Source of the DNA: Streptomyces beigongshangae | GTDB lineage: Bacteria; Actinomycetota; Actinomycetes; Streptomycetales; Streptomycetaceae | Direction: 5' to 3' | Length of the DNA: 64,000 bases | Assembly: GCF_019710745.1 (NCBI RefSeq) | Contig: NZ_JAHKJW010000022.1 | Location: 1 to 64,000 of the forward strand | Shown: piece by piece, positions 46,216 through 51,152 of the stretch | Layout of the letters: every line of letters starts with the position of its first letter | Position numbering within the stretch: the first letter of the stretch is position 1 | Program-made: the position numbers and the translations under genes | Notes under the pieces: generated by a model | Database searches by the model: none | What the model was told of the DNA's origin: nothing | The model's input: only the letters and a program-made list of their open reading frames with translations

Positions 46216-48711
46216 TCAGGAACCCGCCAGGTGGCGCGCCAGGTAGGGCGCCGTGGCGCTGCGCCGGGATCTCGCCACCTCGGCGGGAGGACCCTCGGCC
46301 ATCACCCGGCCGCCGGCGTCCCCGCCGCCCGGCCCCAGGTCGATGATCCAGTCGGCGGTGGCGATCGTGTCGAGGTCGTGCTCGACCAGGACGACGGTGC
46401 TGCCCGCGTCGACGAGCCGGTGCAACTGCCGCAGCAGCAGGTCGACATCGGCGGGATGGAGCCCGGTCGTCGGCTCGTCGAGGAGGTAGAGCGCGTGTCC
46501 GCGGCGGGCCCGCTGCAACTCCGCGGCCAGCTTGATGCGCTGGGCCTCGCCGCCGCTGAGCTCCGTCGCCGGCTGCCCCAGTCCCAGGTAGCCGAGTCCC
46601 ACCTCCCGCAGCGTCTGCAGGCTCCCGGCGGCGGCCGGGACGTCGGCGAGGAACCCGGCGGCCTCGTCCACGGGCATGGCCAGCACGTCCGCGACGCTCT
46701 TCCCGCGGTACGTCACTTCGAGCGTCTCCGCGTTGTACCGCGCCCCGTGGCAGACCGGGCACGGGGCGTACGTCCCGGGCAGGAACAGCAGCTCGACCTC
46801 GACGAACCCCTCACCCTGGCATGTTCCGCACCGTCCCTCCGCGACGTTGAAGGAGAACCGCCCCGGCGTGTACCCGCGGGAGCGTGCCTCGTCCGTCGCC
46901 GCGTACAGCTTGCGGACCGCGTCGAACATGCCCGTGTAGGTGGCCAGGTTGGACCGGGGTGTCCGGCCGATCGGCCGCTGGTCGACCCGTACCAGGCGGT
47001 CGAAGGACCCGGACCCCGACACGTCCTGGAAGTCGATCACCGGCTCCGCCCCCGGGGCGTCCCCGGCGGCACCGGCGTTCTCCGTACCGTCCGCCTCCTG
47101 CCCGAGGTGGCCGCGTACGGCCTCGGCGAGCACCTGCGTCACCAGTGTCGACTTCCCGGAGCCGGACACGCCGGTCACCACGGTCAGCACCCGCAGCGGC
47201 ACGGCGACCGAGACGTCCCGCAGGTTGTGGCGGGAGACGCCGCTCAGGCGCAGCCAGCCCCGCGGCTCGCGGAGCCGGTGCCCGACCGGCCCGGCGCGCC
47301 CGGACAGCCGGCGCCCGGTGGCCGACTCCCCGACCCGGCCGAGTCCGGACACCGGACCGCTGTACAGGACGCGGCCACCGCCCTCCCCCGCCCCGGGGCC
47401 GATGTCCACCACCCAGTCCGCCCGCCGCACGACCTCCATGTCGTGCTCCACGACGAAGAGCGAGTTGCCCGCCGCCTTGAGCCGGTCCAGCACGTCCAGC
47501 AGGGGCTCCGCGTCGGCGGGGTGCAGTCCGGCGGAGGGTTCGTCGAGGACGTAGACGACCCCGAACAGGCCCGAGCGGAGCTGGGTGGCGATGCGCAACC
47601 GCTGCGCCTCGCCGGGCGACAGGGTCGTCGAGCGGCGGCCCAGCCCGAGGTAGCCGAGTCCCAGGCCGAGCAGCACCTCGATACGGGCGACCAGGTCCGC
47701 GCAGATCCGTACCGCGGCCTCGTCCGCCTCCCCCGCCCGGTCCGTCGTGGTGGCCGCTCCGGCCCCGGGCATCTCCGCGACCGGCCGCAGGAACGCGGCG
47801 ACCTCGGTGAGGGGGAGCGCGTTGACCTCGGCGAGGGAAAGACCGCCGAAGGTCACCGCGAGCGCCTCCGGGCGCAGGCCGCTGCCTCCGCACACCGGGC
47901 AGGACACGCTCCGGACGAAGCGCAGCGCCCGGGCGCGCATCCGCTCGCTCCTCGATTCGGCGAGGACGTGCATCACATGGGCGCGGGCACTCCAGAACTT
48001 CCCGTGGTAGCCGTGGTCGACGCGGCCGGGCTCCGGCTCGATCAGGACGGACGGCTGTTCGTCCGTGTGGAGCAACCAGTCGCGGTCCCTCTTGCGGAGC
48101 CTGTGCCACGGCCTGTCGATGTCGATGCCCAGGCCGCTGACGACACTGCGCAGGTTGGCGCCCTGCCAGGCCCCCGGCCAGGCCGCGATGGCGCCGTCGC
48201 GGACGGAGAGCGAGGGGTCCGGTACGAGCAGGTCCTCGGCCACGTCGACGGTGACGCCCAGCCCGTGGCAGCGCGGGCAGGCTCCGGCCGCGGTGTTGGG
48301 CGAGAACGCCTCCGCGGCGAGCCGGGCCGCCCCGGGCGGGTGGGTACCGGCACGCGAGTACAGGATGCGCAGCAGGTTGGACAGGGTGGTGAGGGTACCG
48401 ACCGTCGATCGTGAGCCGGGGGCGCCGTGGCGCTGCTGCAGGGCCACGGCGGGCGGCAGTCCGGAGATCTCCTGGACGTGCGGCGCGCCGACCTGCTGGA
48501 GCAGCCGGCGGGCGTACGGCGCGACGGACTCGAAGTACCGGCGCTGGGCCTCGGCGTAGAGCGTGCCGAAGGCCAGCGAGGACTTGCCCGAGCCGGAGAT
48601 CCCGGTGAAGGCGACGAGGGCGTCGCGGGGCACGTCCACGTCGACGTTCTTCAGATTGTGCTCACTGGCGCCTCTGACATGCACGAACCGGTCGGACGCG
48701 GCATGGTCCAC
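46216..48711 (-). CDS. Second UvrA-like ABC ATPase
   Basis: The 831-residue twin-ABC protein has two Walker A loops (FTGISGSGKSSLAFGT; VVTGVSGSGKSTLV), two signatures (LSPGEAQRLRI, with Pro in place of Gly, and LSGGEAQRIKL), Walker B boxes (VLDEPSAGLHPAD; LLDEPTTGLHPAD) and zinc-binding Cys pairs (CPRC, CPVC, CGTC, CPVC). It differs widely from the UvrA-like protein at 28801, so the two are not a recent duplication. It is shorter than housekeeping UvrA and belongs to the UvrA2-like class reported in resistance and damage tolerance. The gene is divergent from the toxin-antitoxin pair, across 265 bases, and converges with the mraY copy. Confidence 0.88.
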   Translation of the reverse strand: MDHAASDRFVHVRGASEHNLKNVDVDVPRDALVAFTGISGSGKSSLAFGTLYAEAQRRYFESVAPYARRLLQQVGAPHVQEISGLPPAVALQQRHGAPGSRSTVGTLTTLSNLLRILYSRAGTHPPGAARLAAEAFSPNTAAGACPRCHGLGVTVDVAEDLLVPDPSLSVRDGAIAAWPGAWQGANLRSVVSGLGIDIDRPWHRLRKRDRDWLLHTDEQPSVLIEPEPGRVDHGYHGKFWSARAHVMHVLAESRSERMRARALRFVRSVSCPVCGGSGLRPEALAVTFGGLSLAEVNALPLTEVAAFLRPVAEMPGAGAATTTDRAGEADEAAVRICADLVARIEVLLGLGLGYLGLGRRSTTLSPGEAQRLRIATQLRSGLFGVVYVLDEPSAGLHPADAEPLLDVLDRLKAAGNSLFVVEHDMEVVRRADWVVDIGPGAGEGGGRVLYSGPVSGLGRVGESATGRRLSGRAGPVGHRLREPRGWLRLSGVSRHNLRDVSVAVPLRVLTVVTGVSGSGKSTLVTQVLAEAVRGHLGQEADGTENAGAAGDAPGAEPVIDFQDVSGSGSFDRLVRVDQRPIGRTPRSNLATYTGMFDAVRKLYAATDEARSRGYTPGRFSFNVAEGRCGTCQGEGFVEVELLFLPGTYAPCPVCHGARYNAETLEVTYRGKSVADVLAMPVDEAAGFLADVPAAAGSLQTLREVGLGYLGLGQPATELSGGEAQRIKLAAELQRARRGHALYLLDEPTTGLHPADVDLLLRQLHRLVDAGSTVVLVEHDLDTIATADWIIDLGPGGGDAGGRVMAEGPPAEVARSRRSATAPYLARHLAGS

Positions 48712-48797: not shown

Positions 48798-48842
48798 CAC
48801 CTCCGGGACCTCCGGGACCTCCAGGACCTCCAGGACCTCCAG
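48798..48842. repeat. Five tandem 9-bp repeats in the UvrA-like/TA gap
   Basis: The unit GACCTCC(G/A)G occurs five times in series. The gap around it (48712-48976) is rich in such GGACCTCC strings and otherwise holds only the toxin-antitoxin promoter at its right end. Confidence 0.75.
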
Positions 48843-48942
48843 CGTGCCCCTTTCGCCCCGTTCGGGCACCCGGGGCGCAGCGAAACCCGCACAGCCCTCA
48901 AGCAGGGGCGCGGCCCTCCTCCCCGGAAGGGCGGAGGCGACT

Positions 48943-48971
48943 TGCCCACCCGGTACCTACTAGGTACCATC
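48943..48971 (+). promoter_or_regulatory. Toxin-antitoxin promoter with operator palindrome in the spacer
   Basis: A -35-like TTGCCC (48943-48948) and a -10-like TACCAT (48966-48971) are 17 bases apart. The palindrome GGTACCTA-C-TAGGTACC (48953-48969) fills the spacer and the start of the -10. The antitoxin ATG follows five bases after the -10, so the transcript is probably leaderless. An antitoxin dimer bound here would block RNA polymerase. Confidence 0.75.
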
Positions 48972-48976
48972 CCCGC

Positions 48977-49216
48977 ATGCCGTCCTTGAACATCACCTAC
49001 AGTGACGAGGAGATGGAGGAGCTGCGAGCCGCCGCGGCCGCCGCGGGCACCTCCCTCAAGCAGTACGTGCACGACCTGTCACTGCGCGAGCGCCAGCGCC
49101 TGCAGTTCCTGCGCTACGCCATCTCCTGGGGAGAGCTGCACCGCGACGAGTTCGACGAGGCATTCCCGGACGAGGTCCCGCCGGCCGGCCGCCGACAGGG
49201 AGCCGAAGCCGCCTGA
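48977..49216 (+). CDS. RHH-type antitoxin
   Basis: This 79-residue protein has a beta strand PSLNITYSDEEM and two helices (EEMEELRAAAAAAG and TSLKQYVHDLSLRERQRLQF) that make a ribbon-helix-helix fold, followed by an acidic tail (ELHRDEFDEAF) that would cover the toxin. The start codon is a few bases behind a palindrome that overlaps its promoter, as expected for an autorepressing antitoxin. It overlaps the toxin start by one base (TGATG), so the pair is translationally coupled. The family is widespread in Streptomyces, where it is paired with this type of Fic-like toxin. Confidence 0.8.
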   Translation: MPSLNITYSDEEMEELRAAAAAAGTSLKQYVHDLSLRERQRLQFLRYAISWGELHRDEFDEAFPDEVPPAGRRQGAEAA

Positions 49217-49587
49217 TGCTGCACGTCGACATCGCATGGCTGCTCGACATCCAGGAGCAGGCCGTCCCCGAGGACGTGACGGTCGGGGACTACTCCGCCC
49301 TGGTGGCGGCGGTCGCCCGCCACAAGACCCGTATCCCGCGTCCCGGCATAGCCGCGCCGGACGCGGCCTGGCGGGCGGCGGCCCTCCTCCACACGATCGT
49401 CCGGCTGGAGCCCCTGCCGTACCGTAACTCCCTGTACGCCTGTCAGGTCGCCGTCGCCTACATGCACACCTCCGGCGAGGGCATCGATCCGCCCTACGGG
49501 GCGCTGGTCGAGCTGGTGCGCGACATCCAGGCCCGCAAGGCCACCGTCTACCAGGCGGCCGACCGGATCCGCGCCTGGCGCATCTGA
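49216..49587 (+). CDS. Fic/Doc-like toxin with degenerate active site
   Basis: The 123-residue protein follows the Doc/Fic small-toxin layout: an N-terminal helix HVDIAWLLDIQEQAVPEDVT, the segment GDYSALVAAVARHKTRIPRP, a helix AAWRAAALLHTIVRLEPL and a C-terminal helical bundle. Active Fic proteins have HxFxxGN(K/G)R after the ALLHxIV helix. Here the same place reads EPLPYRNSLYACQ, with no His and no Gly, so AMP- or phosphate-transfer may be lost. It could be an inactive or differently acting toxin. A strong hairpin ends the unit at 49627-49670. Confidence 0.7.
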   Translation: MLHVDIAWLLDIQEQAVPEDVTVGDYSALVAAVARHKTRIPRPGIAAPDAAWRAAALLHTIVRLEPLPYRNSLYACQVAVAYMHTSGEGIDPPYGALVELVRDIQARKATVYQAADRIRAWRI

Positions 49588-49670: not shown

Positions 49671-49686
49671 GGATGTCACCCGGGTG

Positions 49687-51152
49687 TCAGACGCAGCCCG
49701 CGGGCGTCGGCCGGGACACGTCCTCGATCAGGGACTCGTGGGCCGCCGCGAGCCGCCGCACATCGGGCTTGACGACCGCGCGGTCGTACGTGAGCAGCCC
49801 GTTCAGCTCGCCCTCGACGTCCGCGATCCGGGTGTACACCGCGCCGTTGCCGCCCCGGCAGGCCAGCGCGCGCACCTCGTCCAGCTTGGTCGCGCTCGTA
49901 GGCGGCGCGGGCGGTGGCGGACGGGTTCACGCCCGCGGTCATGGCCGGCATGTCCTGCCACACCAGCAGGCCGAGCCTGTCGGCCCGGTGGAACCACCGG
50001 TCGGGTTCGACCTTGATGTGCTCGCGCACCGAGTTGAAGCCCATCGCCTTGTGCATCCTGAGGTCGTGCGCGAGGGCCTCGTCACTCGGGGCGGTGTGCA
50101 GGCCGTCGGGCCAGAAGCCCTGGTCGAGGGTGGCCATCATGAAGACCGGCTCGCCGTTGAGGACCGTTCTTCCACTCGTCGCGGGTGAGCTGGGGCCTCG
50201 GGTACTCGCGGTGGGCGCCGGCCGGTGTGACGTCCTCGCCCCAGCGGGTGCCCAGCCGGTGGGTGGACTTGTTGGCGCCGCTGCTCCAGAAGGACCTGAC
50301 GACGTCGCCGTCCCTGCCGGAGAGGCCCCCTGCCCCGTCGTAGCGCACATCGGCGGAGCCGCGCGCGGTGCCGTCCTTGTTGTCGACCACGGGCTCCTTG
50401 AGCGCGACCAGCAGCGAGGCGGGGCCGGCCGGGTCCAGCCGTGCCCTCCCGAGCGGCCAGGCGGCTCCGCCCATCACGGTCCGCAGGTGGTCGGTGGGTC
50501 CGGCCGGGGGCGCCTTGAGCTCCTGGGCGAAGTCGAGCCGGAGCGTACGGCCGTCCTTGAGCACCGTGGTGGCGACGGCACCGTCGTAGTCGTAGCCGGC
50601 GGGGAGCAGGAACGTTGACTGCGGTACGGCGGTCCTGGTGCCGCCGGGCGGCGTCCAGCGCACATGGAGGTCGGAGCCCCCGTAGTGCTCGAAGTACTCG
50701 ATCCTGATGCCGTACGCCTTGCCCGCGGTCAGCTCGACCGGTTCGGCACTCTGTTCGCGGTCCCAGTCGTCGACCCAGTGGTCGATGACGAGCTTCCCGT
50801 CCGCCCGGAGACGGAAGCCGTTGTCCCCGACGACCGAGAAGGTGGTGGGGCCGGTCCTCTCCGGCACGATCCGGCCGGTCCAGCGGACGCTGACGTCGTC
50901 CGACCGGCCGGTCGCGGAGCGCAGGCGGGACTCCAGGTCGTCGAAGTCGACCTGTGGGTCGAAGGCGGTGGCCTTGAGTTCGTGGAAGTCGAAGGCGCCG
51001 GGGGCGGACTGGGTGTAGTACTCGCCCTTGAGGCCATGGATTCCGGGGGTGTCCTCCACGGCTGTCGCGACCGGCGCGGCGGCCAGTCCCGCGGCGCCCA
51101 GTGCCGCTGCGACGAACAGCGCGAGCCGGTCTCTGAGGGGTCTGATGCACAC
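49687..51152 (-). pseudogene. PA14-GH2 glycoside hydrolase with two internal deletions
   Basis: The start (MCIRPLRDRLALFVAAALGA...) is a secreted-protein signal. A PA14 module follows at about residues 38-175 (LKGEYYTQSAPGAFDF; VGDNGFRLRADGKLVIDHWV; GSDLHVRWTPPGG). The frame then holds the GH2 beginning EYPRPQLTRDEWKN. At about 50170 it jumps to another frame, RTVLNGEPVFMMATLDQGFW and GFNSVREHIKVEPDRWFHR, the start of the GH2 barrel. At about 49890 it jumps again, to DEVRALACRGGNGAVYTRIA at the C-terminal part. The whole GH2 sandwich domain and the catalytic acid/base region are gone. The promoter side, upstream of the LacI gene, appears intact. This looks like a formerly complete galactosidase-type enzyme now inactive. 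Confidence 0.85.

Follow-up and report, generated by a model that had tools for sequence, protein, structure and literature searches.

A Doc-like toxin family of Streptomyces without the Fic motif, encoded in a likely leaderless and self-regulated gene pair

The gene pair at positions 48977-49587 of the analyzed stretch of DNA (the window, 64,000 nucleotides of Streptomyces beigongshangae) encodes a probable ribbon-helix-helix antitoxin and a homologue of the toxin Doc in which the Fic catalytic motif is lost. We read the pair as a mobile, self-regulated module of the toxin-antitoxin type, the toxin of which would act without Fic chemistry, and we give this reading a probability of about one half. 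The two-gene pair is real; its orthologs in Streptomyces reach 96% identity, and in the window as well as in the orthologs the stop codon of the antitoxin gene and the start codon of the toxin gene overlap as TGATG. The genome with the window comprises 9.13 Mb in 212 contigs.

Features of the gene pair and its upstream region. Columns: feature; position: position in the window; strand; remarks: characteristics of the respective feature.
Feature	Position	Strand	Remarks
Putative -35 box TTGCCC	48942-48947	+	found by eye; TNNCC columns partly kept in 36 copies
Candidate operator palindrome, GGTACC half-sites around TACTA (GGTACCTACTAGGTACC)	48952-48968	.	present in 36/36 copies
Putative -10 box TACCAT (TANNNT)	48965-48970	+	final T 36/36; matches the S. 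lividans leaderless consensus
Antitoxin gene	48977-49216	+	79 aa; ATG at 48977, stop TGA at 49214-49216; probable ribbon-helix-helix protein
Toxin gene	49216-49587	+	123 aa; ATG at 49216, stop ends at 49587; predicted Doc fold, Fic motif absent
Degenerated motif loop	49408-49434	+	codons E65-L73 (EPLPYRNSL) at the place of HxFxxGNKR

The pair adjoins a gene for a UvrA-like ATPase (831 aa, 46216-48711, minus strand; recognized by eye), and between the two lies a 9-base unit, ACCTCCAGG, that is repeated in tandem (4.9 copies with 97% matches, 48799-48842). Downstream of the pair, a glycoside-hydrolase-like coding sequence (49676-51152, minus strand; likewise recognized by eye) has its pieces in different frames, which is due either to a frame shift or to an assembly error.

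The first-pass annotation of the window had called the second protein a Fic-like toxin, and its Fic/Doc-like character is borne out by profile homology to Doc and by the predicted fold. As a single sequence, the toxin found nothing useful in Pfam, NCBIfam and the PDB (no Doc was found in the PDB), and in PHROGs a Doc-like family was reached only at E 0.022. Comparison of a profile of 25 motif-less members with a profile of nine canonical Docs gave 99.65% and E 4e-25 over 125 columns, and the motif-less profile matched the Doc structures 9vzc, 3k33, 3dd7 and 3kh2 in the PDB with E from 1.8e-5 to 2.4e-4. The Pfam Fic family (PF02661) was matched by none of the 25 motif-less members at E ≤1 and by all nine canonical members at E ≤0.01; NCBIfam DOC_P1 gave weak matches to three of the 25 (best E 0.0097). 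PADLOC left the window pair and two motif-less relatives unmatched, and the canonical Doc of locus L046 matched its models PDC-S23, PDC-M59B and PDC-S05. A model of the toxin with pLDDT 88.7 and pTM 0.84 was obtained with an alignment that includes canonical Docs from viral contigs, and the model from close orthologs alone was poor (pLDDT 64.1, pTM 0.57); the predicted fold thus rests partly on the kinship with canonical Docs. The best structural match of the predicted model is Doc 3dd7 (Z 16.3, rmsd 2.3 over 119 residues, TM 0.80), a crystal of Doc with His66 changed and bound to Phd. AvrB (1nh1) reaches Z 8.9 and is level with the Fic proteins, which follow at 8.9 and below, and in BFVD two unnamed viral proteins were found with E <0.001. 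By profile comparison and modelling, the window toxin is a Doc homologue with a predicted Doc-like fold.

Doc is a kinase of EF-Tu. Its chemistry, phosphorylation using ATP, is described in part of PMC10866546. In the window toxin E65-P-L-P-Y-R-N71-S-L73 aligns with HxFx(D/E)GN(K/G)xR, and only the Asn is kept, Asn on Asn; the motif His, Asp/Glu, Gly, Lys and Arg are all replaced. It had been noted at the outset that PLPYRNSLY replaces the motif, which is correct as to the replacement, but the register was off by one, since EPLPYRNSL (residues 65-73) is the segment that aligns. The loss of the catalytic motif itself stands, as profile alignment, column comparison and fold match all failed to reveal a hidden Fic motif in the window toxin. 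Because these residues are replaced, His-dependent phosphoryl or AMP transfer, as it is known, is unavailable to the toxin.

With the window toxin as query, 144 family matches were gathered. Eight of them were dropped: both matches of L086, where the gene is spread over two frames; L039 and L066, which carry an internal stop and resemble each other in the part shown; the fragments L037 and L038 from contig ends; L046, the same gene as in L143; and a second Fic-like ORF of L130. This left 136 family members including the window copy, 115 of which lack the motif; this proportion, like the counts by genus, is biased against canonical Docs by the motif-less query. The 67 non-redundant rows consist of 18 with DGN(K/Q)R, 15 of these with the His, and 49 without. 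Among the 49 motif-less rows the Asn is kept in all 49 and Asp25 and Arg35 in 48 each. The place of the His is taken by Pro (23), Arg (18), Glu (5), Gln (2) or Asp (1), that of Asp/Glu by Arg (16), His (12), Ala (7), Tyr (5), Ser (5), Asp (3) or another residue (1). A survey of conserved residues had been proposed for the family, and in the alignment it did yield positions specific to the motif-less rows: Trp8 (43/49; canonical Docs have Asp/Glu in 16/18), His36 (42/49; canonical Pro in 17/18 and His in 0/18), Tyr82 (48/49; canonical Phe in 18/18), Arg119 (43/49 vs 7/18) and Trp121 (45/49 vs 7/18).

Such positions might be taken to mean that other residues stand in for the lost ones and preserve Fic chemistry, with H36 or E65, say, in the role of the His, and that the toxin still phosphorylates or AMPylates a target. 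The exchange of Pro for His36 in 42 motif-less rows and the invariant motif Asn fit this idea, but Gly, Lys and Arg are gone from the window toxin too, and position 65 varies between Pro, Arg, Glu, Gln and Asp, so that we regard such a rescue as very improbable.

In an unrooted tree computed with a quick method from 126 columns, the motif columns being removed, the 49 motif-less rows fall on one side of a branch (98%). This is consistent with a single loss of the motif, and the count is one change if L121, L125 and L141, which have DGN(K/Q)R without the His, are taken as canonical and four if the His is required. These three (RALLDGNQR, PALVDGNKR and RPLVDGNKR, respectively) are Docs of other genera in which the His is replaced and most of the motif kept; from their sequences they are separate partial losses. 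In the motif-less subgroup with L077 and L108 the loop carries one extra residue (PALESPMNEF), and L077 has the longest branch of the tree.

Both genes are under constraint, with a median dN/dS of 0.16 for the toxin (666 pairs) and 0.25 for the antitoxin (467 pairs), determined by simple counting over pairs that are not independent. In six motif-less subgroups, two of which have just 6 rows, residues 66-75 (the old loop and the start of the next helix) rank 8, 19, 10, 12, 12 and 10 in conservation among 114 windows along the protein, and residues 39-48, which correspond in position to the Fic flap, rank 102, 93, 113, 83, 63 and 77; in canonical Docs the loop ranks 2 and residues 39-48 rank 20. 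Judged by these ranks, the old motif loop still matters in the motif-less toxins and the flap region probably has a different function in them. In Fic proteins the flap binds the target. Doc is said in PMC2686095 to lack the flap hairpin itself; any role for segment 39-48 here is a guess. The constraint data already contradict the view that the pair is a decaying, functionless pseudogene pair. Broken relatives do exist (L039 and L066 with an internal stop, L086 in two frames), but dN/dS is low, operators and start spacings are kept in 36 of 36 copies (see below) and the motif loop is conserved in each subgroup, which makes decay scarcely credible.

Upstream of the antitoxin gene, the -35 and -10 boxes are separated by a spacer of 17 nt. 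The first-pass annotation had the palindrome filling this spacer; it does span most of it, and it extends over the first four bases of the -10 box as well. The antitoxin ATG is located 6 bases downstream of the -10 box and not five, as had been counted before. A scan with the promoter consensus reported no site (the window promoter scores 8/12, with a limit of 9), and the promoter call therefore rests on conservation. Altogether, 38 operator copies were examined (window, L001-L036 and L040) and 36 were used, the window and 35 orthologs: L014 was left out with its antitoxin out of frame, and L022 was missed by the script though its sequence has TGATG. In one locus the nearer palindrome was taken over another one 45 bases away. 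GGTACC-N5-GGTACC and the terminal T of the -10 box are present in all 36 copies, and the -35-like TNNCC has its T in 26, its first C in 32 and its second C in 27. From the palindrome to the start codon there are 8 bases in 28 copies, 9 in seven and 7 in one, corresponding to 6, 7 and 5 bases past the -10 box, and 35 copies start with ATG and one with GTG.

According to sections of PMC8079986, 17% of the transcripts in S. lividans are leaderless, their -10 box is TAnnnT and the mean distance from the -10 box to the start site is 6.3 nt. The leaderless architecture claimed for the window pair agrees with these promoters, and with the 6-base spacing and the TAnnnT so alike, the most natural assumption is a transcript that starts at the ATG or right beside it. 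Since palindrome, -10 T and the spacing of 5-7 bases recur in 36/36 copies, the operon is likely to be leaderless and self-regulated.

Residues 1-38 of the antitoxin match ParD (PF09386) with E 3e-5 and 24.8 bits, which is below the cut-off of 27.3, and a sequence search of the PDB with the antitoxin gave no match. Since the assignment is based on this weak ParD match, the antitoxin is termed a ribbon-helix-helix protein with the qualification "probably." A profile was grown from the window antitoxin, and an ORF matching it immediately precedes 110 of the 115 motif-less and 19 of the 21 canonical toxins (weakest E 5e-7). In the control, one of 153 other ORFs of similar size matched, and this one is the displaced antitoxin of L074 itself. 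Five motif-less toxins are exceptions: in L043 and L074 the antitoxin is located further upstream, in L014 and L105 it is out of frame or shortened, and L129 shows none. No antitoxin is visible in the 3.4 kb locus of L129, the toxin of which is intact, and L105 has only the shortened one; this hints that some of the toxins are harmless or cross-neutralized. In L074 (224-1863) roughly 1 kb separates the antitoxin, which ends at 445, from the motif-less toxin, which begins at ~1450, and a long open frame between them resembles, by eye, a PP2C-type phosphatase. Among 121 same-genus genomes, 21 have a window-type antitoxin (E ≤1e-10) and all 21 have the toxin, adjacent in 20 and split between contigs in one. 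The broken toxin of L086 keeps an intact antitoxin; for those of L039 and L066, the part shown has no visible antitoxin.

Searched with the toxin, 296 genomes of the class gave matches in 50. Members were fetched from 31 genomes of the same genus, each of which has one or more motif-less copies, and from 19 of other genera, which have canonical ones; an extra Fic-like ORF in G067 was scored motif-less by the pattern, yet its sequence is HPFHNGNKR. Canonical Docs were fetched from one of the 31 same-genus genomes, with a query ill suited to find them. The genome with the window has five motif-less and two canonical copies (L046 with HALIDGNKR and L047 with HPLVDGNKR). An eighth, weak match in the window genome, L048, was rejected as a family member. 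The presence of both kinds in one genome, together with the ORFs matching one ribbon-helix-helix profile in front of both, would suit a function in immunity or antagonism, in which the motif-less Doc and its antitoxin counter canonical Doc pairs or invaders, for instance by antitoxin titration or anti-addiction. However, the motif-less toxins have closely linked antitoxins and palindromes of their own, and canonical Docs come from a single same-genus genome, albeit with the unsuited query; we consider such a function improbable.

Close orthologs of the toxin are patchily distributed: 5 of 121 genomes have one with ≥80% identity along its whole length, and there are besides fragments at contig ends in G333 (82%) and G396 (79%). 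In 40 loci with flanks of up to 3 kb, the UvrA-like gene and the two hydrolase-like neighbors of the window recur only in L001 and L002, and the LacI-like neighbor has a single match of 38%, in L034. Family members are present in 156 of 72,556 plasmid records (E ≤0.01), ten of them with 80-90% identity; among the 40 of these 156 matches that were listed, 28 are annotated "toxin Doc," four are hypothetical proteins and eight have no annotation. Phage records contained no toxin match at E ≤1. Searches of IMG/VR with the motif-less relatives L043 and L056 returned nothing, and canonical queries returned 1 and 15 loci. The pairs are mobile, and their distribution is patchy and mostly non-syntenic. 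The impression that the window pair is an exceptional case is not supported: the family is genus-wide, most of the plasmid copies listed bear the Doc name, and leaderless starts are ordinary in Streptomyces.

The combined pattern of operator and start codon matched once in the window and never in 100 shuffles. GGTACCN5GGTACC occurs, as an exact match, at only two sites in the 9.13 Mb genome. The second site was rejected as an operator of the same type: it is located inside a longer, terminator-like inverted repeat with outer GGGCCC arms, and no family gene follows. The exact operator with ATGCC is found in this genome at the pair locus only. In the 121 same-genus genomes, the palindrome with a spaced ATGCC, a pattern that takes exact half-sites only and favors the family by its ATGCC, gave 14 matches, and the control gave 0. 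Thirteen of the 14 are located at family antitoxins and the 14th (G404:C52) lies ~260 bases before a toxin match, at a place where a family antitoxin would be expected. Eight of the 21 genomes with a window-type antitoxin have no exact operator match at the antitoxin gene, and thus operators vary in more distant pairs. In the motif-less subgroups with L045, L109, L114, L091 and L056, the antitoxin start is closely preceded by palindromes particular to the subgroup, examples being GGTAACAGCTGTTACC, GCTAGC...GCTAGC and GTACCGGAGCGGTACC; operator specificity seems to have diverged together with the pairs.

Since no further exact operator precedes a start codon, the pair appears to regulate only itself. 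This bears on the main rival of our reading, in which the Doc-like protein is a non-toxic co-repressor, kept only to stabilize or tune the antitoxin repressor, which would make the pair either a regulator or a remnant that regulates itself. Doc-type toxins are co-repressors of their antitoxins, so a function of this kind would be in keeping with the family. It would agree with the loss of nearly all catalytic residues, with the variable residues 39-48 of the motif-less subgroups and with the intact toxin of L129 and that of L105, which have no visible and a shortened antitoxin, respectively. The 3dd7 mutant of Doc, with His66 changed, is reportedly non-toxic, and loss of catalysis therefore need not leave a toxin. 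Against this, an exact operator in front of a start codon was found nowhere else in the genome and, in the 121 genomes, nowhere outside the family; moreover, mobility, multiple copies and subfamilies with differing palindromes are not explained by self-repression alone. We regard a pure co-repressor as a serious contender, though on balance an unlikely one. A module with an effect in trans is the best reading, because control is confined to the pair itself, the pairs are mobile, the genes are closely linked and the loop is under constraint.

The pair resembles Phd-Doc and ribbon-helix-helix-Doc systems in the predicted fold (Z 16.3), the length, the adjacent upstream antitoxin and the palindrome near the start codon, and the canonical actinobacterial pairs L046 and L122 have a similar layout. 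It differs from them in that its toxin is without the Fic motif and that the motif-less members have conserved W8, H36, Y82, R119 and W121 and are variable in 39-48. Among motif-less relatives in the Fido fold, AvrB is named in part of PMC2686095, and it is described as a rhamnosyltransferase in part of PMC10866546; a Fido protein without the motif can thus be another enzyme. The window family shares with AvrB the (predicted) Fido fold and the absence of the Fic motif, and the Arg at the Asp/Glu place in 16 of the 49 motif-less rows may be compared with R266 of AvrB. In contrast, AvrB carries an extra lobe and is a plant effector that is secreted, and where it has the Arg for the donor beta-phosphate, at the motif Asp/Glu place, the window toxin has Tyr69.

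The Doc annotation, variants of the Fic/Doc motif and the motif-less AvrB are already known. A Fic/Doc survey has, in the portions available of PMC4454073, clades F3 and D1 without crucial residues that are thought to be possibly inactive; one change is named there for the Doc clade D1, Asp to Asn, whereas in the window family nearly the whole motif is replaced. The main text of PMC4454073 does not contain the word "Streptomyces." Papers on toxin-antitoxin systems of Streptomyces deal, in the parts accessible, with RelBE, with YoeB/YefM and with a pair whose proteins, 90 and 83 aa long, have no Pfam domain, the last known here by its description (PMC4989188, PMC6521030). In the open-licence literature we found no prior description of a motif-less Doc group.

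In the course of events that we infer for leaderless transcription, repression, toxicity and mode of action, a dimer of the probable ribbon-helix-helix antitoxin would bind the GGTACC palindrome over the -10 box and shut off the leaderless operon. The C-terminal part of the antitoxin would hold the Doc-fold partner, which would also tune repression. If the antitoxin runs short, the operon would open and free toxin would act, either by non-catalytic binding of a target or by a different chemistry on the Fido scaffold, as AvrB does. More specifically, a large Streptomyces toxin group may have left Fic catalysis for a new activity on this scaffold, be it an AvrB-like transfer from a nucleotide sugar or of another group, or the stoichiometric binding of a target. 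The motif loop, H36, W8, Y82, R119 and W121 would then have been rebuilt around the kept Asn; this proposal is tentative, and we hold it with less confidence than the module as such.

The name "toxin Doc," and with it the implied EF-Tu kinase activity, is passed on by databases to proteins incapable of the known chemistry, and the sampled same-genus genomes have one to several such pairs. If the motif-less proteins are toxic, they would add to the Fido fold one more activity outside Fic chemistry, one that comes with a ready antitoxin control and would be easy to find. If they are non-toxic, they would clearly exemplify the conversion of a toxin into a co-repressor.
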